Assembly (NCBI RefSeq): GCF_004362895.1
Contig: NZ_SNXI01000003.1
Coordinates: forward strand, 124,001 to 188,000
Direction of reading: 5' to 3'
Source: Idiomarina aquatica
GTDB taxonomy: Bacteria; Pseudomonadota; Gammaproteobacteria; Enterobacterales; Alteromonadaceae
Length of the DNA: 64,000 bases
In this document: piece by piece, positions 39,361-58,828 of the stretch
How positions within the stretch are numbered: position 1 is the stretch's first letter
Layout: each line of letters opens with the position of its first letter
Translations under genes and position numbers: made by a program
The notes under the pieces: generated by a model
What the model was told of the DNA's origin: nothing
The model's database searches: none
What the model saw: the letters and a program-made list of their open reading frames with translations, nothing else

Positions 39361-39687
39361 GTGACTATGAACCCGGAAGTGATGAGAGCCTCATCCGCTC
39401 AGGCGGCGCGAGTGATGCAACTGTTGTCGCACCCTGACCGGTTATTAATTTTATGCTTACTTAGCGAAGGTGAGTTTACTGTAGGTGAAATCGAGCAACG
39501 ACTCGAGTTACACCAGCCGATGTTGTCGCAACATTTAAACCGCTTGCGTCAACAAAACCTGGTCAGCACGCGACGTGAAGGTAAATACATTCATTATCAG
39601 CTAGCTGACGAGCGTACGGAAAAAATAATGAATCTTCTATACAGTTTATACTGTCACAACGCAAAATCAGTTGAGACATCAGTATGA
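39361..39687 (+). CDS. ArsR-family repressor with BigR/SqrR-type cysteine pair
   Basis: Winged-helix ArsR/SmtB regulator of 108 residues (GTG start; ATG two codons later is possible). The recognition region is VGEIEQRLELHQPMLSQHLN. It has exactly two cysteines, C32 in LLILCLLSEGEF and C98 in SLYCHN, 66 residues apart. The known persulfide sensors BigR (C42/C108) and SqrR (C41/C107) have the same spacing, and E. coli YgaV has the same motifs. No metal-binding motif is seen. It is likely a repressor released by sulfane sulfur; the sulfide-oxidation and cytochrome bd genes at 46.9-58.7 kb are plausible targets. Confidence 0.85.
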   Translation: MTMNPEVMRASSAQAARVMQLLSHPDRLLILCLLSEGEFTVGEIEQRLELHQPMLSQHLNRLRQQNLVSTRREGKYIHYQLADERTEKIMNLLYSLYCHNAKSVETSV

Positions 39688-46042: not shown

Positions 46043-46882
46043 ATGTCAACTAACGAATACCAGCCCCCAAAAGTTTGGACATGGGATCAAGAAAGCGGTG
46101 GTAAGTTCGCTAACATTAACCGACCGGTTGCCGGCGCAACCCATGATAAATCATTACCCGCAGGCGAACACCCTCACCAACTGTATTCGTTAGCAACGCC
46201 AAACGGCCAAAAGGTCACGATACTGTTTGAAGAGCTGCTGGAAAAAGGCATTGCTGCTGCCGAATATGACGCCTACAGTGTGGATATTACTGAGGGGGAG
46301 CAATTCAGTAGTGGCTTTGTCGAGATTAATCCTAATTCTAAGATCCCCGCCTTACTGGACGTTTCAAAAACTCCCGCAACACGCGTGTTTGAGTCAGGTT
46401 CAATACTGCTTTATCTGGCCGAAAAATTTGACGCCTTTATCCCCAACGAACCCGGCAAGCGTACCGAGTGTTTAAACTGGTTATTCTGGCAAATGGGAAG
46501 TGCGCCAATGCTAGGGGGTGGATTTGGGCATTTTTATGCCTACGCACCAGAGAAGCTGGAATATCCGATTAACCGTTACACTATGGAAGTTAAGCGACAA
46601 CTAGACGTACTTGACCGGCAGCTCGCTAAACACGACTTTATCGCCGGCGACGAATACACCATTGCCGATATGGCCATCTTCCCATGGTACGGCGCTTTGG
46701 TACTGAACGAAGTTTATGACGCGGCTGAATTTTTACAGGCACATGAGTACAAAAATGTTATTGCCTGGGCCAACCGCATCAATGAACGCCCGGCGGTTAA
46801 ACGTGGTCGCCGCGTAAACAAAGTGTGGGGCGATGAGAGCGAACAGTTGCGCGAACGCCACTCAGCTGCAGACTTTGATTAA
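46043..46882 (+). CDS. yghU: YghU-type glutathione S-transferase
   Basis: GST-fold protein of 279 residues, started at the ATG after a GGAGG ribosome site. The N-terminal YQPPKVWTWDQESGGKFANINRPVAGATHDK segment is diagnostic of the YghU/YfcG Nu class, which has disulfide-bond reductase activity with glutathione. The C-terminal helical domain has DEYTIADMAIFPWYG. It lies 26 nt after kynU and may share its transcript. The stop overlaps the convergent TSUP gene by 4 nt. Confidence 0.93.
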   Translation: MSTNEYQPPKVWTWDQESGGKFANINRPVAGATHDKSLPAGEHPHQLYSLATPNGQKVTILFEELLEKGIAAAEYDAYSVDITEGEQFSSGFVEINPNSKIPALLDVSKTPATRVFESGSILLYLAEKFDAFIPNEPGKRTECLNWLFWQMGSAPMLGGGFGHFYAYAPEKLEYPINRYTMEVKRQLDVLDRQLAKHDFIAGDEYTIADMAIFPWYGALVLNEVYDAAEFLQAHEYKNVIAWANRINERPAVKRGRRVNKVWGDESEQLRERHSAADFD

Positions 46883-47631
46883 ATAACGGACTTGGCGATA
46901 ACAAAGATGCCCATAGCCACCAGGAAAACTGCAAAGCCTTTTTGCAGTTTTTCTTTTGGCAATGAACGACCCAGTTTAGAGCCGAATACACTACCTAAAA
47001 CACCACCAGCAATCATCAAACCAATAATAAACCAGTCAAACTGAACATCCTGAGCAGCCATCACCGCATAATATTTGAAGAACCCTGCGATCGACTTAAT
47101 GACTATGATCAGTAGGCTGGTACCAATCGCTACCGGCATTGACAAGCCGGCGAGTAGTACTAATGCAGGAACAATTAAAAAGCCACCGCCAACACCCACA
47201 AAACCCGTGATAATACCGACAATTAATCCCTCTAAGGTGACCTTGGCATAATTCATTTGCGGCTGCTGCTCAACAGGCTTAGGCTTGCTGCGCCACATCA
47301 ACACCGCCGCCGCAATCATCAATAGTGAGAACACCAATAACTGCCAGCGACTATCAACTATCGTACCCAACCAAGCGCCGCCATAGGTGCCGATCATTCC
47401 CGGAATACCAAACACCCAGAAGTGCTTCCAGCTAACCGTTTTGCGGCGAATATAAGAAATAGAACCAAACAAGCTGATACCCGCCACAATCAACAGCGAT
47501 GATGCAATGGATACATCTGCAGGCATCTCGACCAAATACATCAACACCGGCACCGTCAATATCGAACCGCCCGAGCCAAATAGCCCTAATGACAGACCAA
47601 TGATCACAGCCCCTAAAATGGCGAGTAACAT
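46879..47631 (-). CDS. TSUP-family (TauE/SafE) exporter
   Basis: Inner-membrane protein of 250 residues with about eight helices. Family segments are the N-terminal GLFGSGGSILTVPVL and the mirrored GFVGVGGGFLIVPALVL. TSUP members move sulfite, sulfoacetate or other small oxyanions. Next to peroxiredoxin, persulfide dioxygenase and SQR genes, sulfite or thiosulfate export after sulfide oxidation is a fair guess. About 188 nt separate it from the peroxiredoxin gene, with a terminator and repeats between. A GTTATAAC sequence lies about 31 nt upstream of its start. Confidence 0.87.
   Translation of the reverse strand: MLLAILGAVIIGLSLGLFGSGGSILTVPVLMYLVEMPADVSIASSLLIVAGISLFGSISYIRRKTVSWKHFWVFGIPGMIGTYGGAWLGTIVDSRWQLLVFSLLMIAAAVLMWRSKPKPVEQQPQMNYAKVTLEGLIVGIITGFVGVGGGFLIVPALVLLAGLSMPVAIGTSLLIIVIKSIAGFFKYYAVMAAQDVQFDWFIIGLMIAGGVLGSVFGSKLGRSLPKEKLQKGFAVFLVAMGIFVIAKSVI
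46925..46951 (+). terminator. Possible intrinsic terminator for kynU-yghU inside the TSUP gene
   Basis: On the plus strand an 11-bp perfect stem (aaaactgcaaa / tttgcagtttt) with a five-base loop runs into T residues 43 nt past the yghU stop. It lies within the 3' coding part of the convergent TSUP gene, so it must satisfy both functions. It could be chance in coding sequence. Confidence 0.5.
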
Positions 47632-47703
47632 AAATTACCTCATATTCCTTAATTGAATATCGTTATAACTATTTTAATTTATTTATTCGTTAATTGAAAG
47701 CAT

Positions 47704-47743: not shown

Positions 47744-47820
47744 ACCGCGAGCATCGCGAGCCTAAACCGGCCGCAGGCCCCAAACCGCGAGCACAGCGAG
47801 CCTAAACCGGCCGCAGGCCC
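47744..47820. repeat. Two near-identical 37-nt direct repeats
   Basis: Units 47744-47780 and 47784-47820 differ at only two or three positions and are spaced 40 nt apart. Each holds small hairpins with three-base GCA loops (cgcga-gca-tcgcg in the first unit, ggcc-gca-ggcc in both). The last base of the second unit is the first base of the peroxiredoxin stop codon. Style resembles the REP-like hairpins at 4173 and 62663. Confidence 0.7.
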
Positions 47821-48449
47821 TATTTAATATCAGTCAAGCGCAAGTATGGGCGCAGTGTTTCCCAGCCTTGTGGAAATTTAACTTTAGCATCATCATCCGA
47901 AACACTTGGACGAATGATCACAGGCTTCCCGGGCTCCCAATCTGCCGGGCAGGCAACTTCCTGGCTATCGGTTGTCTGCAGCGCATCGATTACCCGCAGG
48001 ATTTCTGCAAAGTTACGACCCACGGTCATTGGGTAAGTCATGGTCAGACGAATTTTCATATCCGGATCGATGATGTATACCGAGCGAATCGCTGCGTTGT
48101 CGTCTTCATCCGGGTGAATCATGTCGTACAGTTCTGCCACTTTCTTGTCTTTGTCCGCGACGATAGGGAACTCAAGCACGGTGTTCTGTGTTTCGTTAAC
48201 GTCCTTGATCCAGCCAAGGTGCTCTTCAACTGTATCCGTCGACAGGCCTAAAGGCTTAACGTTACGCTTTGCAAACTCAGGTGCCAACTGTGCAGTACGG
48301 CCCATTTCAGTGGTACACACCGGGGTGTAGTCCGCAGGATGGCTGAAGAAAAATGTCCATGAACCTTTCGCCCACTCATGAAAATCAATCGTGCCGGTAG
48401 TCGTTTCGATTTTAAAGTTTGGTGCGATAGTACCAATACGTAAACTCAT
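47820..48449 (-). CDS. 1-Cys peroxiredoxin (Prx6 type)
   Basis: Thiol peroxidase of 209 residues that reduces H2O2 and alkyl hydroperoxides. The peroxidatic Cys is at position 45 in HPADYTPVCTTEMG. The length and the C-terminal segment ADWEPGKPVIIRPSVSD with PQGWETLRPYLR are those of the Prx6/AhpC1 group. A second cysteine lies near residue 160. It sits between the TSUP exporter and the persulfide dioxygenase, 42 nt after the latter's stop, so read-through from that promoter is possible. Confidence 0.92.
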   Translation of the reverse strand: MSLRIGTIAPNFKIETTTGTIDFHEWAKGSWTFFFSHPADYTPVCTTEMGRTAQLAPEFAKRNVKPLGLSTDTVEEHLGWIKDVNETQNTVLEFPIVADKDKKVAELYDMIHPDEDDNAAIRSVYIIDPDMKIRLTMTYPMTVGRNFAEILRVIDALQTTDSQEVACPADWEPGKPVIIRPSVSDDDAKVKFPQGWETLRPYLRLTDIK

Positions 48450-48491: not shown

Positions 48492-49388
48492 TTAAAATTT
48501 ATTGGCTGGAATCTTGAAGTAATGTTCTCCATCATTCTCAGCCGGTGGTAATTGCCCTGCGCGTAAATTAACTTGCAGTGCGTGTAACATTCTGTCCGGT
48601 AATGCCAATGTCGCATCACGTTCATCGCGAACCGAGCGGTACTGCTGCTCGCTCACATCACCTGACAGGTGAACATTGCTTTGCTTGTGTTGCGCCACGG
48701 TGGCTTCCCATTGCGCTTCACGGCCACCTTTGCCGTAATCATGTCCGACAAATAGACGGGTTTCGTCTGGCAGGCTCAAAATCCGTTGCAACGAGTCCCA
48801 CAAATCTTTCGAAGAGCCGCCCGGGAAGTCAGCCCGCGAGGTACCGCTGTCCGGATACATAAAGGTATCGTGGACAAATGCCGCATCACCGATAACATAG
48901 GTAATAGAGCCTAATGTGTGACCCGGTGAGAGCCAGACATCTACCTCAAGCTCACCAATTTTGAACTTGTCACCTTCTTTAAACAGATGGTCAAAATCTT
49001 TTGTCGGATCGAACAAGCCCGGTACGTTGTAGTAGTCACTCCAAAGCTTGGCAATTTCGCAAGCCTTCTCGCCAATAGCGTTAGGAGCGCCGGTTTTTTC
49101 TTTCAAATACGCTGACGCCATTAAGTGGTCAGCATGCGGGTGAGTGTCTAAAACCCATTGGATGCTTAGGTCGTTATCCTTAGCAAGTTGTAAAACCTCG
49201 TCAGCGCTCTCGTACGAACATTTGGCACTGCGTGGATCGAAATTCTGCACCACATCAATTAAAGCCGCTTTTTTAGTTTTGGGATCAGCGACAATATATT
49301 GCACTGACCCGGTATCTGCCTCGTAAATTCCCCAGACGTCCGGAGACTGAGGGCCTATTGAAGGGCTTTTGCGAATAATGCTTGTCAT
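48492..49388 (-). CDS. MBL-fold persulfide dioxygenase-like protein (paralogue 1)
   Basis: Metallo-beta-lactamase-fold protein of 298 residues related to ETHE1/Blh, which oxidise glutathione persulfide to sulfite. The start MTSIIRK follows AGGAGG by 8 nt. Metal ligands are HPHADH, GHTLG, VHDTF and GHDY; the usual Gly before the metal Asp is His here. The C-terminal half shares SVRDERDATLALP...QVNLRAGQLPP with the divergent paralogue at 49659. A 16-nt perfect palindrome lies 48 nt upstream. Confidence 0.86.
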   Translation of the reverse strand: MTSIIRKSPSIGPQSPDVWGIYEADTGSVQYIVADPKTKKAALIDVVQNFDPRSAKCSYESADEVLQLAKDNDLSIQWVLDTHPHADHLMASAYLKEKTGAPNAIGEKACEIAKLWSDYYNVPGLFDPTKDFDHLFKEGDKFKIGELEVDVWLSPGHTLGSITYVIGDAAFVHDTFMYPDSGTSRADFPGGSSKDLWDSLQRILSLPDETRLFVGHDYGKGGREAQWEATVAQHKQSNVHLSGDVSEQQYRSVRDERDATLALPDRMLHALQVNLRAGQLPPAENDGEHYFKIPANKF

Positions 49389-49435: not shown

Positions 49436-49451
49436 GTTATAAGCATATAAC
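49436..49451. promoter_or_regulatory. Perfect palindrome GTTATAAGCATATAAC, candidate operator (site 1)
   Basis: Six-base arms GTTATA/TATAAC with a four-base spacer, 48 nt upstream of dioxygenase paralogue 1. On the minus strand it reads GTTATATGCTTATAAC; its first 13 bases recur exactly at 49601 and 58716. Size and symmetry suit an ArsR-type dimer. Confidence 0.6.
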
Positions 49452-49600
49452 AAAATGTTTCTTACGCAAGTGATAGAACCCTTTCGTTGGTCGATTACCA
49501 TAATCGATTTTTGCGATGAAATAATTCGTTCTAATAGACTGTTTAGTTATAGCGTATTGCTATTTGATCCGGATCTATTTTAGGAGTAAGGTTACCTCAA

Positions 49601-49616
49601 GTTATATGCTTATTGC
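49601..49616. promoter_or_regulatory. Candidate operator GTTATATGCTTATTGC (site 2)
   Basis: Shares 13 consecutive bases with the perfect palindrome at 49436 and lies 43 nt upstream of dioxygenase paralogue 2. One half-site is intact, the other degenerate. The rest of the 270-nt divergent region is AT-rich, as expected for promoters. Confidence 0.55.
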
Positions 49617-49658
49617 TTTTAGATATATAAAGAAAATGTATTTTATGAGGTATTCACC

Positions 49659-50552
49659 ATGTCAGTAGCCGTAACAAACACGAGTAGTATTGAACCGGTC
49701 GTCACGCATTTTTTCGACGAACCCACTAATACCTATAGCTACGTAGTGCAGGATCCGCAATCAAAGCATTGTGCCATTATCGACTCAGTACTCGATTTTG
49801 ATTATGCTGCCGGCCGCACTAACACCGAGTCGGCCGAGGCTATTTTAGCCTTTATTAAAGAGCATGATTTAACCGTAGATTGGATTTTAGAAACCCACGT
49901 ACACGCCGACCATTTATCAGCAGCGCCTTATTTGCAACAACAGACCGGAGCTAAACTAGGCATCGGCGAGCATATCAAAACGGTACAAGACACCTTTGGC
50001 AAAGCATTTAATGCCGGTACCGAATTTGCCCGTGACGGTAGCCAGTTTGATCAACTGTTTGCCGATGGCGATACATTTAATATTGGCAACATCGAAGCCC
50101 GGGTATTACACACCCCAGGGCACACGCCGGCGTGTTTAACCTATGTGATGGGTAATGCAGCCTTTGTTGGCGACACCTTGTTTATGCCGGACTTTGGCAC
50201 AGCCCGTTGCGACTTCCCCGGCGGCGATGCCCGCACACTGTACCGCTCTATTCAAAAGGTATTCGCATTGCCTGATGATACCCGCTTGTTTATGTGTCAC
50301 GACTATAAAGCACCTGATCGCGAGGACTATGCGTTCGAAACAACCGTGGCAGAAGAAAAGCAAAATAACATTCACGTTGGCGGTGGCAAAACCGAAGATG
50401 AGTTTGTAAAAATGCGTACCGAACGCGACGCGACACTGGCAATGCCGCGGCTAATCCTACCCTCGGTACAGGTCAATATGCGCGCAGGAGAAATGCCTGC
50501 GCCCGAGGGTAATGGCCAGCGCTACCTTAAAATTCCACTTAATTTATTCTAA
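49659..50552 (+). CDS. MBL-fold persulfide dioxygenase-like protein (paralogue 2)
   Basis: Protein of 297 residues of the ETHE1/Blh group. Metal-site motifs are canonical: HVHADH, PGHTPACLTY, FVGDTLFMPDFGTARCDFPGG and CHDY. It should convert glutathione persulfide or related sulfane sulfur to sulfite, in the cytosol. It is followed 13 nt later by the DUF442-SQR fusion, so sulfide oxidation and persulfide removal are made from one transcript. It is divergent from its paralogue at 48492-49388. Confidence 0.9.
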   Translation: MSVAVTNTSSIEPVVTHFFDEPTNTYSYVVQDPQSKHCAIIDSVLDFDYAAGRTNTESAEAILAFIKEHDLTVDWILETHVHADHLSAAPYLQQQTGAKLGIGEHIKTVQDTFGKAFNAGTEFARDGSQFDQLFADGDTFNIGNIEARVLHTPGHTPACLTYVMGNAAFVGDTLFMPDFGTARCDFPGGDARTLYRSIQKVFALPDDTRLFMCHDYKAPDREDYAFETTVAEEKQNNIHVGGGKTEDEFVKMRTERDATLAMPRLILPSVQVNMRAGEMPAPEGNGQRYLKIPLNLF

Positions 50553-50565
50553 CCGGGGTCTTGCT

Positions 50566-52308
50566 ATGGAACGTCGTAAACTCAGCCCGTTTATCAGTGT
50601 TTCGCCACAGATCTCTGTCGAAGATGTTGGTGTCGCAGCCTCACTCGGGTTCAAAACTATTGTCTGTAACCGTCCTGACAACGAGGGTGAAGACCAGGTC
50701 AACGCCGATAAAATTCAACAAGCTGCAGAAAAAAATGGGTTAGCATTTGAACACTTACCGGTGGTTTCCGGCAATATCACCGATGACGATGTCAGCGCCT
50801 TTACTAAGCTCATGGCAACCGTTAAAGGCCCGGTACTGGCTTATTGCCGCACTGGCACCCGTTCATGCACATTGTGGGCGTTAGCAGAAGCCGCCCATTT
50901 GGCGCCACAAACCTTGTTGGATACTGCACAACAAGCCGGCTATGACCTATCCGGTCAGCAGTCACGACTGCAACAACGTTTTGATCAAAGCGCAGCAGCA
51001 AACGCTTCCGCCGCCCCACAATCAGTCAGTAAACACACTGTTGTTATTGTTGGCGGTGGTGCGGGTGGCCAGGCTACCGCAGCCAGTATTTTAAAACGCC
51101 AGCCGCAAACCGATATTGCCATTGTCGAGCCAGCCGAAGCGCACTATTACCAACCGGGGTGGACATTAGTCGGTGGGGGCGTCTTTGAACGTGAACAAAC
51201 GAAAAAACGAATGCGCGATATCATGCCCAAAGCGGCAACATGGTATCAAACGGCGGTTAGTCAGTTTTTGCCCGAGCAACAGCGCATTGTGCTTGAAAAC
51301 GGCGACCAACTTGCATACCAATGCCTGGTCGTCGCCACGGGACTCAAATTAGACTGGGAGGCCATTCCGGGGTTAAAAGAGAGTCTGGGCCAGCACGGCG
51401 TCACTTCAAATTATCGCTTTGACCTGGCGCCTTATACCTGGAAATTAGTGCAGGCAACCCGCAAGGGCAAGGCTATTTTTACGCAACCACCCATGCCGAT
51501 TAAGTGCGCTGGTGCGCCACAAAAGGCCATGTATTTGTCTTGTGATGAATGGCAACGCAATGAACTTCTAAAAGACATTAACGTTGAGTTTTGTACCGCT
51601 GGCGCCGCCCTTTTTGGGGTCAAAGAGTATGTCCCGGCGTTACAAAAATACGTTGATCGTTATGGCATTGAGTTGCAGTTTCAACACAATTTGATTGCTG
51701 TAGACGGACCCCAGCAAAAAGCAACTTTTGCAGTCACGGATAGCAACGGTGAAACCACGCAGGTTGAAAAATCCTTCGACATGCTACACGTGTGCCCGCC
51801 GCAAGTCGCACCTGATGTTATTGCCAGCAGTCCGTTAGCCGATAGCAACGGATGGGTTGACGTTAGTGCCGAAACCTTGCAACACAAGCATTTTGGCAAC
51901 GTTTATGCGGTTGGTGATGTAGCTAACGCGCCTAACGCCAAAACCGCCGCTGCAGTGCGCAAGCAAGCACCTGTTGTAGCAGAGAACGTGTTATCAACGC
52001 TAGCCGGCAAAAATGCGATGGCTGTTTACGAAGGCTACGGCTCATGTCCATTAACCGTTGAGCGCGGCAAAATCGTGTTAGCAGAGTTTGGTTATGGTGG
52101 TAAGTTGCAACCGACCTTCCCTGCCTGGCTGGTCGATGGCACTAAGCCCTCGCGCATGTCGTGGTTTTTGAAAGAAAAGATGCTGCCCTGGCTGTACTGG
52201 GATGTCATGCTTAAAGGTAAGGAATGGCTGGCAAAACCCAAACACCTTAGCCACCGACCCGAACCGCACAGCGCCCCCGACGCTTGTAATTTCGAAGACA
52301 AAAAATAA
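50566..52308 (+). CDS. DUF442-sulfide:quinone oxidoreductase fusion
   Basis: Two-domain protein of 580 residues started at MERRKLSPF. Residues 1-110 are a DUF442 (Blh N-terminal, phosphatase-like) domain with CRTGTRS at 94-100. From about 155 to the end is an FAD-dependent SQR: GGGAGGQATAA dinucleotide motif, KCAGAPQK with Cys314, YAVGDVANAP, and GYGSCPLT with Cys494. The 180-residue spacing of these cysteines is close to that of human SQOR (201/379), so it is a type II-like SQR. It oxidises sulfide to persulfide and passes electrons to quinone, feeding cytochrome bd. The role of DUF442 is unclear. Confidence 0.88.
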   Translation: MERRKLSPFISVSPQISVEDVGVAASLGFKTIVCNRPDNEGEDQVNADKIQQAAEKNGLAFEHLPVVSGNITDDDVSAFTKLMATVKGPVLAYCRTGTRSCTLWALAEAAHLAPQTLLDTAQQAGYDLSGQQSRLQQRFDQSAAANASAAPQSVSKHTVVIVGGGAGGQATAASILKRQPQTDIAIVEPAEAHYYQPGWTLVGGGVFEREQTKKRMRDIMPKAATWYQTAVSQFLPEQQRIVLENGDQLAYQCLVVATGLKLDWEAIPGLKESLGQHGVTSNYRFDLAPYTWKLVQATRKGKAIFTQPPMPIKCAGAPQKAMYLSCDEWQRNELLKDINVEFCTAGAALFGVKEYVPALQKYVDRYGIELQFQHNLIAVDGPQQKATFAVTDSNGETTQVEKSFDMLHVCPPQVAPDVIASSPLADSNGWVDVSAETLQHKHFGNVYAVGDVANAPNAKTAAAVRKQAPVVAENVLSTLAGKNAMAVYEGYGSCPLTVERGKIVLAEFGYGGKLQPTFPAWLVDGTKPSRMSWFLKEKMLPWLYWDVMLKGKEWLAKPKHLSHRPEPHSAPDACNFEDKK

Positions 52309-52323
52309 CCCTTTCCCAACCTT

Positions 52324-52363
52324 GTGGCGGCTACTCACTCTCTCCGGTAGCGGCCACTTTTTT
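52324..52363 (+). terminator. Rho-independent terminator after the SQR fusion gene
   Basis: An 11-bp stem with one mismatch (gtggcggctac / gtagcggccac) and a 12-base loop is followed by six T residues, 15 nt after the stop. It closes the rightward dioxygenase-SQR transcript just before the convergent cydC stop. Confidence 0.85.
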
Positions 52364-53999
52364 AATAAGGTTGTAATTCAATGCGCTTGCCTCCGGGCAC
52401 ATTCGGATATTCCAGTTGTTGCGGTCCTATATGACTGATAATCAGCCAGAGTTTGTCTTTATTAGCGGATACCATGTTTTCCAGCATACGCTTGGCTAGG
52501 TCGCGCTCTAAACCGGCAAAGGGTTCATCTAACAGCATAATTGGCCGCCCCTGCAACAGCACCCGCGCCAATGCCAGACGTCTTAATTGACCTCCGGATA
52601 AGGTGATACCCCGAGCCCCCAACAGCGAGTCTAACGCCTTGGGCAATGTATTGATAACCACGTCCAGTTCGACAGTTTTCAATACAGACCAGATATCCTC
52701 TTCGGACAACGGCCGCTGAGCCGGATTAAGATTTTCCCTGACCGTACCATCAAGAACTTCGGTTTTTTGTGTCAAAAAACTAACCTGAGAAGAAATTTCA
52801 GTGCCATTGGATAAGGTTATTTTGCCGCCTGCTGTAGGCAGCCAACCCATGATGGCCTCCGCTAACGAGCTTTTTCCTAGTCCTGACGGCCCCTGTAACC
52901 AATGGACTGCGCCGGTTTCAAAACAAGCTGAAACAGGTTTTATTAACAGACGTTGATTGCGCATCACGCTCACCTGGTTCAGGGTTAACGTTGCAGTGTG
53001 ACTCGCTTTGTGAACCGCCTTACCTTGCGGGCTTACTTGCGAAGACTGCCCATCAGTAAGCAAGCGCCGCGCTGCTGCGAGCGTCTTACCGTAACCACCC
53101 CATTGCGATGGCAAATCAGCAGCTAACTCTTGCCATGCTAATGCTGACAGTACCAGCATGATCATCTCGGCTGCGCTTAAATTCCCCGCCTGAAATGTAA
53201 GTGAAGACAGTATCACCACAACCATAAAAATAACCTGTGAAAGTAGCTCAACCAGCCATAACGCACGGTGTTGCAGCGCTAACTGTTGGTCATCGAGCTG
53301 TTCTTGCCGCTGGGCTTGCTTTAAAAGGCTTTGCTGTTGCGCCGCATAGGCATCCCATGCCACCAGTTCAGTAATCGATTCGGTGAGTGCCATAGCCTGC
53401 CGACGCAGCCGTTGGGTGGACTGCAACTGCTGCAGCGCCAGTCGCCGGGTTATTGCCGCCATGCGGCCGCTGACTAACAGCACTAGCGCCATGACTAACA
53501 CTAGCGCCAGCGCCGCGGCGGGAATATACAAATACCAAAATACCGTTAGTGAAAACGTTGCAGCCACAAATACAATGACCGGCGCAACCAGCCGTAACAG
53601 CAGGTTATCCATGGCATCCAGATTGCGGGTAAGGTTTTGTACGCCATCGGCAACACGCAACGACGCTAACTGCGCCATCGCCTGCTGCTTTAACCGTTTA
53701 AATAATGCAATGCGCCAGCGTGCCTGCAGCTTTAACACCATGTCGTGGTTTACCAGCCGCTCAATGTATCGACTCAGCGTTCGGGCGATAGCAAAAAAAC
53801 GAATACCGGCCCCCGGCGTGTAAATATCAAAGGCCGTGTATAAAGCCGCAGCGGTAATAAACCACCCCGACAACGACAACAAACCGATACCAAACAATGC
53901 CGTCGCCACAGCCAGAGCTAATCCAACAACTAACTGCAACCGCGCACTCTTCAGTTGTTTCAGCCAGGGTTTTAGCAGCTGCCAGTCTCGCTTTATCAT
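52362..53999 (-). CDS. cydC: Thiol reductant ABC exporter, CydC subunit
   Basis: Half-transporter of 545 residues that pairs with CydD to move glutathione/cysteine, needed for cytochrome bd assembly. Six membrane helices (~20-310) precede the ATPase domain with Walker A GPSGLGKSS, signature LSGGQLRRLALAR and Walker B IMLLDEPFAGL. It overlaps cydD by 4 nt and is last in the leftward bd operon. Confidence 0.93.
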   Translation of the reverse strand: MIKRDWQLLKPWLKQLKSARLQLVVGLALAVATALFGIGLLSLSGWFITAAALYTAFDIYTPGAGIRFFAIARTLSRYIERLVNHDMVLKLQARWRIALFKRLKQQAMAQLASLRVADGVQNLTRNLDAMDNLLLRLVAPVIVFVAATFSLTVFWYLYIPAAALALVLVMALVLLVSGRMAAITRRLALQQLQSTQRLRRQAMALTESITELVAWDAYAAQQQSLLKQAQRQEQLDDQQLALQHRALWLVELLSQVIFMVVVILSSLTFQAGNLSAAEMIMLVLSALAWQELAADLPSQWGGYGKTLAAARRLLTDGQSSQVSPQGKAVHKASHTATLTLNQVSVMRNQRLLIKPVSACFETGAVHWLQGPSGLGKSSLAEAIMGWLPTAGGKITLSNGTEISSQVSFLTQKTEVLDGTVRENLNPAQRPLSEEDIWSVLKTVELDVVINTLPKALDSLLGARGITLSGGQLRRLALARVLLQGRPIMLLDEPFAGLERDLAKRMLENMVSANKDKLWLIISHIGPQQLEYPNVPGGKRIELQPY

Positions 54000-55654
54000 G
54001 CCACCACCCTAATCTGTCGCGTTGCGCTAGCGATTAGTGCAGGATCATGGGTTGCCACGATAACCGTATGCCCGCTGGCACAGTATTCCTTCAAACAATG
54101 CCGAATCGCTTGTGCGGATATTTCATCAAGATTTTCCGTCGGTTCATCGGCAATCAACACCGCGCGCCTGGACAAAAGGCAACGCGCTAGAGCCAGGCGG
54201 CGCTGCTCACCACCCGATAAACCTAACCCACCCTCTGCCAGTTTAGTATCTAAACCGAGCGGCAGATTGGCGACTAATTGATCCAGTTTAACCTGCTCCA
54301 ACGCCGCCGTAATTTGCGCATCACTATGCTGTTCAAATAAATTCATGTTGGCTCGCAGGCTGCCTGCGCTTAAAAACGGTTGCTGAGCAAAGTAGGCGAT
54401 GTCAGTGGTCGCTTGCTCAGACCGAGTCAGTTTGCCATTAAACGGCATGAGTCCAATCAGCACCTTTAGCAAGGTTGTTTTGCCACTGCCCGAATTGCCG
54501 TTAATCACACATAAATCGCCGCAGGCAATCTCGTTATCTGAAAAATCTATTGGTTTACCGCCAGCGTCATCTGCTTGACTTAGGTTTACTTTTAAACCAC
54601 GCCACTGGTAAAGCGTATTGGGGCTCGACGTTTTTTGTATTCGTGACTGAGTTGGGGGCTGAGAATAAGATACATCCGCCTTGTTCACTTCACATAGCAA
54701 AGTTGCCGCGCCTATGGCAGCCGCGCGATCGTGATAACTTTGTGCAAATTGCCGTAGCGGTGCGAAATATTCCGGCGCCAGTAACAACACCAGCAAACCG
54801 CTAAAAAGTGTCAACTGGTCTGCGCCCAGCCAGTCAATGTACCCCAACAACCCGAAGCCGACGTAAAGGGCAACTCCTGCAATCGCAACACTGGAAAAGA
54901 ACTCCAGCACAGCCGACGATAAGAAAGCGATACGTAGCGTCGACATCGTTGCTTTGCGATAGCCCTCGCCCGCTGCAGCAACATCGTTCACGGCCACGGC
55001 GCCCGCGTTAAATAGCTTCAACGTAGTAATATTGCGTAACTTGTCGGTAAAAACCCGGCTTAATGCAAAACTTTGCTGCGCATGTTTTTGGCTGAGCTTT
55101 TCAGCCCCGAGCCCAACCAGCGCCATAAAGACCGGAATAATCGGCCCTGAAAACAGTAACAGTACACCGACTACGGTATTGAGATAAAAACATACCAACA
55201 GAATAATTGAAGGCGATGCCACCACCAGATACTGCTGCACAAGATAGCGACTGAAGTAGCCTTTTAGCGATTCAATAGGATCTAACTGTAATGCGCCATC
55301 AGCCGCAGCAAGAACTTGTCCTGACTGAGCCTTGTGTTGCCAGTCTTGAGTCAATTGGTGACGCGCACGCTGGCTGGCAATAAGTGTCGCACGGCGTAAA
55401 TACCGCTGCTGCCATAGGGGCACTATAGTCCGCACCAGGCTTGTGGCGGCTAACCCGGCGATTAATAACAGTTGGGATTCAACAGCGTTTCCGTTCACAA
55501 ATAGCCGTTCGGCTAACAAAGCCAATAGGGCTAACTGGCCAATGACAACGACCGTTTTTAACAGCCCTAATAAAAACGCCCACTGAATGGGGCGTTTTAC
55601 TGCAGCGGCAAGTTGCCGAAGATAGCTTGAAGCGGACGCAAATGCTGCGTTCAT
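53996..55654 (-). CDS. cydD: Thiol reductant ABC exporter, CydD subunit
   Basis: Half-transporter of 552 residues, started at MNAAFASASS after an AGGAAG ribosome site; a longer frame would run back into cydB. The membrane domain is followed by Walker A GNSGSGKTTLLK, Q-loop FAQQPFLSAGSL, signature LSGGEQRRLALARCLL and Walker B VLIADEPTENLD. It lies 31 nt after cydB and overlaps cydC by 4 nt. The gene order cydA-cydB-cydD-cydC in one operon differs from E. coli, where cydDC is unlinked to cydAB. Confidence 0.93.
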   Translation of the reverse strand: MNAAFASASSYLRQLAAAVKRPIQWAFLLGLLKTVVVIGQLALLALLAERLFVNGNAVESQLLLIAGLAATSLVRTIVPLWQQRYLRRATLIASQRARHQLTQDWQHKAQSGQVLAAADGALQLDPIESLKGYFSRYLVQQYLVVASPSIILLVCFYLNTVVGVLLLFSGPIIPVFMALVGLGAEKLSQKHAQQSFALSRVFTDKLRNITTLKLFNAGAVAVNDVAAAGEGYRKATMSTLRIAFLSSAVLEFFSSVAIAGVALYVGFGLLGYIDWLGADQLTLFSGLLVLLLAPEYFAPLRQFAQSYHDRAAAIGAATLLCEVNKADVSYSQPPTQSRIQKTSSPNTLYQWRGLKVNLSQADDAGGKPIDFSDNEIACGDLCVINGNSGSGKTTLLKVLIGLMPFNGKLTRSEQATTDIAYFAQQPFLSAGSLRANMNLFEQHSDAQITAALEQVKLDQLVANLPLGLDTKLAEGGLGLSGGEQRRLALARCLLSRRAVLIADEPTENLDEISAQAIRHCLKEYCASGHTVIVATHDPALIASATRQIRVVA

Positions 55655-55685
55655 GGATTCTTCCTGGTGATAACCTAGTAAGAGC

Positions 55686-56693
55686 CTAGTGATAACCCTG
55701 GTCGGCTTTAACCTTACCGCGGAACACCCAATAGGTCCAAGCGGTATAAACCAGCACAATAGGGATCACAAACAGTAAACCAATTAATAAAAACAGCTGC
55801 GATTCGTGTGCAGAGGCGGCGTCTGCCAGAGTATAGTTTGGCGGTACCACGTACGGCCATTTACTCGCTAACAAGCCCAGATAAGTGAAGACAAACAATG
55901 CCATGGTTGCGATAAATGGCGTACCCTCGCGGCGTTGGCTAACCGAACGATAAATCCAAAACGCACTAGCCAGCCCCAAAATAGGCAGTAACCATATCGC
56001 TGATATACCATCAAACCAGCGGTCTGCAACAAATGCATCGACAAACGGCGTCCCAATACTGATGGCAAAGAAAATGACCAAAACGGCAGCCAGTAATGGC
56101 TTGACCAGCTTATAAGCCCACTCCTGAGTCGAGCCCTCTGACTTCATGATCAACCAGGTAGCACCAAGCAGCGCATAACCTGCCACTAAACCAATGCCCG
56201 TCAGTACGGTAAACGGTGTCAGCCAGTCCAGCGCACCACCCACATAACGCATGTTTTCGGTTTCGAAGCCTTGAATGTAAGCACCCACTACCGCGCCCTG
56301 TGCAAAGGCTGCCACGGTTGAGCCAATCGCGAATGACCAGTTCCATAAATAGCGGGATGAATGCGCCTTAAAGCGAAACTCAAAGGCAACGCCACGAAAT
56401 ATCAGCCCGGCGAGCAGTAAAAACACGCCAATGTAGAGTGCCGGTAAAAAGATGGAATAGACCAACGGAAAGGCGGCTAACAATCCCGCGCCACCCAGCA
56501 CCAGCCAGGTCTCGTTACCGTCCCAAACCGGTGCCACTGAATTCATCATAATATCTCGATCATGGTCGCTCGGCGCAAACATAAACAAGATACCCTGACC
56601 CAAATCAAAGCCATCCATCAATACATACATAATAACGCCAAAAGCAATGATTCCGGCCCAAATGTAGGTTAAGTCAAAAACAGGTTCACTCAT
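55686..56693 (-). CDS. cydB: Cytochrome bd ubiquinol oxidase subunit II
   Basis: Inner-membrane subunit of 335 residues (start MSEPVFDLTYIW, with AAGG upstream). About nine helices are present. Family segments are MDGFDLGQGILF, NSVAPVWDGNETWLVLGGAGLLAAFP and RGVAFEFRFK. It starts 11 nt after cydA. Confidence 0.95.
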   Translation of the reverse strand: MSEPVFDLTYIWAGIIAFGVIMYVLMDGFDLGQGILFMFAPSDHDRDIMMNSVAPVWDGNETWLVLGGAGLLAAFPLVYSIFLPALYIGVFLLLAGLIFRGVAFEFRFKAHSSRYLWNWSFAIGSTVAAFAQGAVVGAYIQGFETENMRYVGGALDWLTPFTVLTGIGLVAGYALLGATWLIMKSEGSTQEWAYKLVKPLLAAVLVIFFAISIGTPFVDAFVADRWFDGISAIWLLPILGLASAFWIYRSVSQRREGTPFIATMALFVFTYLGLLASKWPYVVPPNYTLADAASAHESQLFLLIGLLFVIPIVLVYTAWTYWVFRGKVKADQGYH

Positions 56694-56704
56694 AACGGCC
56701 ATCC

Positions 56705-58087
56705 TTAATCAAAACTTGCTTCAGCAGCAGACAGTGGACGTTTAGCACGATGTTTATCATCCTCGTGCTGCTCGGTTCCCTCGGTTCCCGTGCGAATGAC
56801 TCGCGTAAGGTAATATGCACCAGCAGCGAAAACACAGGCATAAACCAGGAAGTAACCAATCAGTGTAAATAACGCCATCCCGCCAGTTAGAGAAGGCGTC
56901 ACGCCTTCAGCGTGTGTCATTTGTCCGTATACCAAATAGGGGGCTCTCCCCACTTCAGTAACGAACCAACCTGACAGCACCGCAATAAACGGGCTTAGGG
57001 TCATTAACCTGAGTGTCTGTAAGTACCAACGCTTGTGCATATAGGCGCGATTACGACGCAGGAACAAGCCGATAACCGACACCAGCACCATCAGTAGCCC
57101 CATCGCGACCATCACCCTGAACGACCAAAACACAATGGGGACATTAGGCTGTAGTTCCGGTGGTTTTTCTTTTACGCCGGGCAGTTCCCCGTCCCAGTCA
57201 TGAGTTAAAATAAAGCTTGCCAGCTTAGGAATGCCTACCTCGAAGTGGTTGGTTTGCTGTTCCTGGTCCGGAATCGCGAACAACAACAGCGGCGCTCCTT
57301 TGCGGGTATCCCAGTTACCCTCCATCGCTGCTACTTTAGTCGGCTGGTGTTCCAGCGTATTCAAACCATGCAAGTCGCCAATAAATACTTGCAGCGGCGT
57401 TAAGAACAACAGCAACCACAACGTCATCGATAAAGCTTTGCGATGCAGTTCAGTATCGCGCTTTTGAATCAGGAACCAGGCACTGACACCGGCAACAACG
57501 AACCCGCCAGTAAGGAACGAAGCCATTCCCATATGCGCAAAGCGATACCAAAATGATTCATTGAAAATAGCTGTCGACCAGTCGACCACGTGATAAATAC
57601 CATCACGAATTTCGACGCCGGCCGGCGTCTGCATCCAACTGTTGGCGGACAAAATCCAGAACGAGGAAATAAAGGTTCCGATCGATACCATCAATGCAGC
57701 AAAAAAGTGAACGCCATTAGGCACTTTACCGCGTCCAAACAACAGCACACCAAGGAAAGCGGCTTCCAGAAAGAACGCCGTCACCACTTCATAGCTTAAT
57801 ACCGGCCCCAGGAAGTTGGCCGTGGCCAGCGAGAAATTACTCCAGTTGGTGCCGAACTGAAATGACATGACAATACCGGATACAACGCCCATGCCAAAAA
57901 CCACCGCAAAGACCTGCGTCCAAAAAGCGCCGAGACGCTCCCACTTAGGGTTATTGGTTTTAAACGCGAGTCCGTAAATCAGTGCAATATAGGATGCCAA
58001 ACCGATGGTGAAAACCGGAAAGATGGCATGGAAGGACACAACAAACGCGAACTGAATTCGCGAGAGTAACAGCGGGTCAAGTTCCAT
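56705..58087 (-). CDS. cydA: Cytochrome bd ubiquinol oxidase subunit I (short Q-loop type)
   Basis: Quinol-oxidising, haem-bearing subunit of 460 residues. An axial His is expected in SFHAIFPVFTIG near residue 19. The Q-loop has GDLHGLN...HQPTKVAAMEGNW. The length indicates the short Q-loop/CIO-like group rather than the long E. coli CydA. Cytochrome bd resists sulfide, which suits its neighbourhood beside SQR. It is preceded 48 nt upstream by a haem-c protein gene that probably shares its promoter. No cydX-like frame was noticed. Confidence 0.95.
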   Translation of the reverse strand: MELDPLLLSRIQFAFVVSFHAIFPVFTIGLASYIALIYGLAFKTNNPKWERLGAFWTQVFAVVFGMGVVSGIVMSFQFGTNWSNFSLATANFLGPVLSYEVVTAFFLEAAFLGVLLFGRGKVPNGVHFFAALMVSIGTFISSFWILSANSWMQTPAGVEIRDGIYHVVDWSTAIFNESFWYRFAHMGMASFLTGGFVVAGVSAWFLIQKRDTELHRKALSMTLWLLLFLTPLQVFIGDLHGLNTLEHQPTKVAAMEGNWDTRKGAPLLLFAIPDQEQQTNHFEVGIPKLASFILTHDWDGELPGVKEKPPELQPNVPIVFWSFRVMVAMGLLMVLVSVIGLFLRRNRAYMHKRWYLQTLRLMTLSPFIAVLSGWFVTEVGRAPYLVYGQMTHAEGVTPSLTGGMALFTLIGYFLVYACVFAAGAYYLTRVIRTGTEGTEQHEDDKHRAKRPLSAAEASFD

Positions 58088-58135
58088 GATAAGAACTCCT
58101 CATTTTATGACTCAAATTCAACGTATGCTGAACAA

Positions 58136-58684
58136 TCAGTTTTCGCGCACGACAAAGGCACCGCGGATATCGCCAACCTCAAAACCCGTTGCCTGATCAT
58201 CCGGGTAACGTGCATTGATCGCCTGCTTCAACTCCGGTTTAACGTTGCTACCATGACAGGCCGCGCACTGCGGTTGCATAACAATCGCCTTCATCCATAC
58301 CGTTTTGCCGGAATCATCCGTGTAGGTCTGACTTGGCACCTTGTCTTTACTTTTTTGCCATTGTTGCTGAAAGGCTCGCAATACATCTTGTTGCGCTTCA
58401 GATGCCGTATTGCCTGGGTTTCGTACTTTTAAAGCAGTACGCCCAACCTGTACATTTAGATCGTCACTAACCGCCTGCGCAATAGCAGGAGCCTGTTCAT
58501 TACAAACGGCAATAGCGGCAATATGTCCTTCGCTTTGTATCGTGGACATAAGCACTTTTCCCAAACGCTGTTGTAGTTGCTTTGCAGCCTCCGAATAGCT
58601 CGGTTCACTAGCGAAAACAAAACTTGATGGTGTTACTATGCTTAAACATGCAATAACTGACAGAATTCGTAACTTAACTGACAT
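58136..58684 (-). CDS. Periplasmic haem-c protein, Tll0287-like (DUF3365)
   Basis: A 182-residue protein with a signal peptide (to about residue 26, FAS/EPS) and one haem-c motif CAACH at 140-144. The N-terminal helical part (SEAAKQLQQRLGKVLMSTIQ...AVCNEQAP) and C-terminal segment with DVRG-like GDIRGAF match the DUF3365/Tll0287-like sensory or redox haem proteins. It begins the leftward run into cydABDC. Site 3 of the shared palindromic motif lies 32 nt upstream. Role in the oxidase is unknown; redox sensing or electron input are possible. Confidence 0.85.
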   Translation of the reverse strand: MSVKLRILSVIACLSIVTPSSFVFASEPSYSEAAKQLQQRLGKVLMSTIQSEGHIAAIAVCNEQAPAIAQAVSDDLNVQVGRTALKVRNPGNTASEAQQDVLRAFQQQWQKSKDKVPSQTYTDDSGKTVWMKAIVMQPQCAACHGSNVKPELKQAINARYPDDQATGFEVGDIRGAFVVREN

Positions 58685-58715
58685 GGTTAACTCCTGCTTG
58701 GGAATTTTTACCTAT

Positions 58716-58731
58716 GTTATATGCTTATTCG
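58716..58731. promoter_or_regulatory. Candidate operator GTTATATGCTTATTCG (site 3)
   Basis: Same 13-base core as the sites at 49436 and 49601, here 32 nt upstream of the haem-c gene that leads the cyd operon and 98 nt upstream of the divergent HDOD gene. One half-site is intact. Confidence 0.55.
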
Positions 58732-58828
58732 TTTTGGTTCTACATGTTCAGCTGTGTCGTTTTGTCGCAGCGCAATAACAAGTGTAGTTGATACTTTACA
58801 ATTTTATAGAGTAATAGATGACAAGGTT

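Follow-up and report, generated by a model that had tools for sequence, protein, structure and literature searches.

Why two persulfide dioxygenase genes and a cytochrome bd operon should share a short sequence just before their coding regions is the question raised by a 64,000-nucleotide stretch of the Idiomarina aquatica genome (G000:C3:124001-188000, hereafter the window, G000 being the 2.95-Mb genome of this species). An earlier note on the window had reported a common 13-nucleotide core at all three. Indeed, the 13-mer GTTATATGCTTAT was found exactly at 49439-49451 (-), 49601-49613 (+) and 58716-58728 (+), upstream of pdo1, pdo2 and the operon of a Tll0287-like gene and cydABDC, and a scan of the 2.95-Mb genome returned these three copies and no others. 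The genome count was drawn from the 26 places with three or fewer mismatches to GTTATATGCTTATAAC; a copy lying three bases or fewer from a contig end would escape it. At the GC content of the window approximately 0.10 copies would be expected in 2.95 Mb, and recalculation agreed with the probability of about 0.002 that the note had given for one extra match in 64 kb. The distances to the start codons measured 47 nt for pdo1 (ATG 49388), 45 nt for pdo2 counted from the 13-mer (ATG 49659) and 31 nt for the Tll0287-like gene (ATG 58684), close to the 48, 43 and 32 nt first stated.

Alignment of relatives revealed a 16-bp inverted repeat, GTTATA-N4-TATAAC, with the 13-mer as its core. It precedes five units in Idiomarina: the three above, a TSUP/TauE-SafE exporter gene and, outside the window, a gene that joins a cysteine desulfurase to a rhodanese. 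Across the five promoters, 51 of 60 arm columns were invariant as against 35 of 200 flank columns. These columns came from selected rows (16 of 18 genomes for the desulfurase, six of nine for Tll0287 and eight of eight for the others) and the sites were placed by best match, which somewhat favored the contrast; because of this selection and placement, and because the species share ancestry, the Fisher value of the contrast overstates its certainty. Alignments made without the pattern gave the same conserved blocks. The center of the repeat was variable at four of the five promoters and kept at pdo1. The same inverted repeat was thus present at several promoters with its arms kept and its spacer free, the pattern predicted for an operator of one factor. 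We consider GTTATA-N4-TATAAC very probably a genuine Idiomarina sulfide operator, with a regulon that includes cytochrome bd.

The exact form of the repeat was specific, genome-wide, to functionally related genes. G000 contained two exact palindromes where 0.21 were expected and the reversed control had none, and all 21 exact palindromes in 15 Idiomarina genomes (19 in 14 genomes and two in G016) were located at the desulfurase or the pdo1/peroxiredoxin promoter. This tally was made without G003, G011, G012 and G014; for G003 and G011 the site at the desulfurase is known separately. The five one-mismatch sites of G000 all lay inside open reading frames (ORFs). Outside the genus, 38 of 142 genomes of the family had an exact match (54 sites); 45 of these sites were read, of which 29 were inside reading frames and none, per the ORFs shown, preceded a persulfide dioxygenase, TSUP, desulfurase or cyd gene. 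With the genome and its relatives scanned, the core was neither frequent elsewhere nor unconserved, and the idea of a regulon withstood the comparison.

Three further occurrences were recorded in these scans. An exact GTTATAAATTTATAAC was located near position 1007 of L351 (G371), between what appeared by eye to be divergent genes for another ArsR-type regulator and an AHSA1/SRPBCC-like protein. Within the genus, a one-mismatch palindrome lay 24 nt before a response-regulator gene in L099 (G006), the same 16-mer being present in G005 and G015, and another lay between fldA-like and fur-like genes in L156 (G005). The sites of L099 and L156 are possibly extra targets and possibly chance matches.

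The exact palindrome outside the window (G000:C4:22768-22783), the only other one of the genome, is 36 nt before the desulfurase-rhodanese gene, a 711-aa frame with a PF00266 cysteine desulfurase and a C-terminal PF00581 rhodanese, located downstream of an apparent nqr operon and apbE. The middle of the protein, approximately 190 residues, had no Pfam match, and a metallo-β-lactamase (MBL)-like label for it was dropped when searches gave no support. The gene was present in 18 of the 19 genomes of the genus and was preceded by an exact palindrome in 16 of the 18, with three different spacers when complements were counted as one. Among these 16 sites, chosen for exact arms, none of the four center positions and three of the 40 flank positions were invariant. 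G012 and G014 kept the gene with a degraded site (three and two mismatches, respectively).

Within the window, operator 1 (49436-49451, minus strand) reads GTTATATGCTTATAAC in the direction of pdo1 and was present in all eight genomes with pdo1, including G000 (seven exact, one with one mismatch). The site at 49436 had been described as a perfect 16-nt palindrome, which was wrong: GTTATAAGCATATAAC (49436-49451) is symmetric at 14 of 16 bases, with the symmetry broken at pair 7/10. Gene pdo1 (48492-49388, minus strand) encodes a persulfide-dioxygenase-type MBL protein and is followed downstream by prx, encoding a 1-Cys-type peroxiredoxin (47820-48449, minus strand). In G001, which had no pdo1 match, the exact operator remained and the peroxiredoxin gene was the next gene, 194 nt away. 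Operator 2 (49601-49616, plus strand) reads GTTATATGCTTATTGC before pdo2 (49659-50552, plus strand; again a persulfide-dioxygenase-type MBL protein), with which a sulfurtransferase (TIGR01244/BLH)-sulfide:quinone-reductase-type fusion (ST-SQR; 50566-52308, plus strand) is in line. It had at most two mismatches in the eight genomes with the pdo1/pdo2 pair, and ten of its 12 arm columns were invariant. The pdo2-like genes of G001, G018 and G009 had the site with two, two and three mismatches, respectively; the pdo genes of G003, G005, G006, G007, G012, G014, G015 and G017 had none better than three mismatches.

The TSUP gene (46879-47631, minus strand; PF01925) had been credited with a weaker site at 47662. 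A site was indeed present, but had been under-read: the full site, TGAATATCGTTATAAC (operator 4, 47654-47669, minus strand), which reads GTTATAACGATATTCA in the TSUP direction, was found with at most three mismatches in eight of eight genomes including G000. The site was also seen, one or two mismatches away from the palindrome, at the TSUP genes of G023 and G035, which belong to two other genera. Between operators 1 and 2 (49492-49566), three further elements were kept in eight genomes with some variation, namely CGATTACCATAATCG (49492-49506), GTTCTAATAGAC (49528-49539) and TATAGC-N5-GCTATTTG (49548-49566), the last with paired changes in several species.

Judged by eye, the sites were positioned at sigma-70-like elements. 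The right arm at the G000 desulfurase promoter corresponds to the -10 of TTGACG-N17-TATAAC; TTGACC-N17 leads to the right arm in G004 and G018, and TTGATC-N17 to the left arm in G003. Operator 1 overlaps a candidate -10, TATGCT (49442-49447), in the middle of the site and 16 nt from a hexamer with a conserved TTG (TTGCGT, 49464-49469), and at pdo2 a TATAT element followed GTTATA by 17 nt in six of eight aligned genomes. Because the operator overlaps or adjoins -10/-35-like elements, as repressor operators usually do, the factor is most likely a repressor of the regulon.

The same coincidence of the arms with -10-like hexamers would also suit a reading in which the shared sequence is a favored -10 region only (TATAAC, or TATGCTTATAAC as an extended -10) and no regulator site, as would the presence of CTGATATGCTTATAAC in 17 of 19 genomes, whose copy ending 2 nt before rhlB in G000 looks promoter-like. 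However, both arms were kept around a variable center at four of five promoters, exact palindromes occurred in 15 genomes only at sulfur genes and not at promoters generally, and the weaker arm at TSUP and cyd was still in the symmetric place. We therefore regard a -10 region alone as very improbable. CTGATATGCTTATAAC was not counted as a site and reads as a leaderless promoter; its position in the rhlB/trxA gap (L004), a context read in G000 only, suggests a leaderless transcript. The proposal in the earlier note of a common regulator for sulfide oxidation and the bd oxidase was supported by the palindrome kept at these promoters in several Idiomarina species, by the sulfur-gene specificity of its exact form and by its overlap or adjacency to promoter elements.

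Operator 3 (58716-58731, minus strand) reads CGAATAAGCATATAAC in the direction of the cyd operon, with two to three mismatches. The first gene encodes the Tll0287-like haem-c protein (58136-58684, minus strand; PF11845) and is followed on the same strand by cydA for cytochrome bd subunit I (56705-58087; PF01654), cydB for subunit II (55686-56702; PF02322) and the ABC exporter genes cydD and cydC (52362-55759; ORFs 53996-55759 and 52362-53999), assigned by reading. Of the nine genomes with the Tll0287 gene, six had a clear site and G010 a doubtful one; G008 and G013, with Tll0287 proteins only about 50% identical, had none.

Oxygen usually governs the expression of cytochrome bd oxidases, and a general low-oxygen or stress regulator, unrelated to sulfur, might accordingly bind the repeat. 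An additional conserved inverted repeat at the cyd promoter, TGCGACA-N3-TGTCnCA (58753-58769; weak in G010), would also be in keeping with such a regulator. Exact sites were few per genome, however, and all at sulfur genes, and the palindrome is presumably unlike the FNR, ArcA and CRP consensus sequences; of the readings considered here we find this the least probable, and a very improbable one. With a conserved TAGAAC that adjoins operator 3, the TGCGACA-N3-TGTCnCA repeat makes it possible that a second regulator acts on the bd oxidase.

The leading candidate for the factor at the operator was the ArsR protein encoded at 39367-39687 (plus strand), of the BigR/YgaV class, which carries Cys32 and Cys98 (numbered from the GTG ORF at 39361). 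Its best solved relative was BigR (3pqj), and 6o8k, which we take to be SqrR, also scored high; against the NCBIfam BigR equivalog it reached 106 bits, below the cut-off of 155. Of the 19 genomes, 17 encoded a single dithiol ArsR with the two sensor cysteines. Close copies of the I. aquatica protein were present in seven genomes of the genus including G000, and the 17 genomes each had exactly one of two ArsR types. G012 and G014 had neither, and both had a degraded desulfurase site. CsoR/CstR (PF02583, E 1e-5), the second family of repressors known to respond to persulfide, was absent in 18 of 19 genomes including G000 and present in G014. In L040 (G014) and L042 (G012), congeners without an ArsR of the BigR/YgaV class, repeats of the GAATATATATAT type were seen before pdo genes.

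Operators of the class were derived from relatives for comparison with the Idiomarina palindrome. BigR-class arsR genes at 79 loci (L221-L299; the best of at least 585 confirmed stretches, Idiomarina excluded) were preceded by AYAwTATAT-N6-ATATAwTRT. The exact core TATAT-N6-ATATA occurred in 19 of the 79, as against at most two in shuffles, and in 46 of the 79 at one or no mismatch, a count without shuffle control. YgaV-class relatives had TTAG-N6-CTAA in five of 14 readable loci (of 21 tried), with flanking A and T in three loci; 0.06 were expected, and the shuffle maximum for any pattern was four. The Idiomarina palindrome has the geometry of TTAG-N6-CTAA with TTA in register, yet matches neither derived box: its likeness to the YgaV core is confined to TTA and the spacing, and the BigR box does not fit the sites here, scoring negatively at four of them, G000 having one match to it when two mismatches were allowed.

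Several observations weigh against an ArsR-bound repressor operator. Four Idiomarina sites scored -6 to -13 against the BigR box. In ten of 19 genomes the only ArsR was one of 38-40% identity (type B), located downstream of a DUF2892-like protein, and the type-B operon has its own conserved element, TCTAAWTTAG. None of the 17 arsR loci of both types had a site at one or no mismatch within about 1.5 kb, the single two-mismatch match near arsR being inside a coding frame in G004. Six type-B genomes had pdo genes without the site, namely G003 and G017 (best three and five mismatches, respectively) and G005, G006, G007 and G015, in which pdo is in another setting. A genome of a neighboring genus, G329, had the desulfurase gene and a type-B-like ArsR, yet no site. 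Because G012, G014 and G329 are the most divergent in the desulfurase protein, the match between absence of ArsR and decay of the site may be a single event. At one or no mismatch, most genomes held the palindrome no more often than its reversed control (seven versus nine in G000), and at three or fewer G000 had 26 versus 25; since such counts are on a par with the control, weak matches elsewhere were not used and only exact or orthologous sites were counted. Finally, the assignments of -10 and -35 elements were made by eye.

The type-B operon itself, comprising genes for an MMPL transporter, a lipoprotein-like protein, a further exported protein, the DUF2892-like protein and ArsR, had a TATATTTC..TCTAAWTTAG promoter in eight genomes of four genera (L213-L217, L195, L196 and L198), and no palindrome at one or no mismatch was found in this cluster (MMPL, lipoprotein-like, DUF2892-like, arsR) in five congeners. 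In G023, a one-mismatch site preceded TSUP in a gene run reaching arsR; it was given little weight, because a separate conserved promoter serves the MMPL part.

Much of this would be accommodated if the operator and regulon are real and the factor is another conserved Idiomarina transcription factor, with ArsR acting on TCTAAWTTAG or GTTCTAATAGA. The operator is constant although the ArsR type differs between species, arsR has no autoregulatory site, the type-B operon has a different conserved element, the pdo1/pdo2 gap contains further conserved elements, and G014 retains a two-mismatch desulfurase site without either ArsR type. On the other side, the targets are those of SqrR/BigR/YgaV-class regulators elsewhere, CsoR/CstR is missing from 18 of the 19 genomes, and, in the stretches of G000 whose ORFs were read (without a systematic regulator search), none of the sites has a further regulator gene next to it. 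We consider another factor plausible, if somewhat short of probable.

The earlier note had pointed to the ArsR of 39361-39687. Its class (BigR/SqrR/YgaV), both sensor cysteines and the fitting targets agree with its being the regulator, an assignment nevertheless unsettled by the lack of a good site at its own gene, the differing operators of related proteins and the other type in ten of 19 genomes. As judged from sequence, the chances that this ArsR, with the second type of the same class in congeners, is the regulator appear evenly balanced. A further reading is that the operator has stayed constant while its sensor was swapped between two approximately 40% identical dithiol ArsR proteins across species, with a half-site unlike those of the compared SqrR/BigR/YgaV systems, a tentative proposal that we rate as rather unlikely.

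In the model that we favor, one factor bound at GTTATA-N4-TATAAC would control five units: pdo1-prx, pdo2-(ST-SQR), TSUP, Tll0287-cydABDC and desulfurase-rhodanese. A rise in sulfide or persulfide, the presumed signal, would cause the factor to leave the operator, and its release would turn on together the oxidation and relay of persulfide, the export of sulfite/thiosulfate and a quinol oxidase that tolerates sulfide. Taken whole, as a repressor operator of a five-unit sulfide regulon with a dithiol ArsR as the likeliest factor, this explanation is held with slightly more confidence than doubt.

Known systems offer both likenesses and differences, given here as far as the excerpts of the cited reports go. 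E. coli YgaV represses the cytochrome bd oxidase genes among others (PMC9774250, PMC11858517). The SqrR/BigR/YgaV regulons resemble that of Idiomarina in their persulfide dioxygenase (PDO), sulfide:quinone reductase (SQR) and exporter targets (cytochrome bd in E. coli), in inverted repeats near the promoter and in a dithiol ArsR in the genome. They differ in the operator, the SqrR half-site being ATTC-N8-GAAT (PMC9774250) and the boxes derived here TATAT-N6-ATATA for the BigR class and TTAG-N6-CTAA for the YgaV class, as against GTTATA-N4-TATAAC, and in that the Idiomarina arsR lies apart from the genes it would control and has no site at its own promoter. HlyU of Vibrio cholerae is of the same ArsR class and binds an imperfect palindrome of similar size, but that element, TAATTCAGACTAAATTA, is 17 bp, lies 173 bp upstream and is activating (PMC4330345). 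In Acinetobacter baumannii sulfide likewise raises expression of PDO, SQR, TauE and cydAB genes, with PDO, SQR and TauE under FisR (sigma-54), BigR on a second set and no regulator named for cydAB in the excerpts, whereas one operator covers all in Idiomarina (PMC7315123). A cysteine desulfurase is also joined to a rhodanese in the Pseudorhodoferax CD-Rhd fusion (PMC8931425); the Idiomarina protein is longer (711 aa), has the middle of about 190 residues and is placed in the sulfide regulon. No title about this motif was among the literature matches listed for the motif or for Idiomarina.

The biology is of a known kind; what is new is the operator, the extension to the desulfurase-rhodanese gene and the unlinked regulator. 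Persulfide dioxygenases, a sulfide:quinone reductase, an exporter, a desulfurase-rhodanese and a bd oxidase are grouped under one short operator, so that a single motif, five promoters and one or two small proteins would suffice to test whether the choice of respiratory oxidase is made directly by sulfide sensing. A conserved operator with a species-dependent candidate sensor would also provide a test case for the evolution of ArsR specificity.

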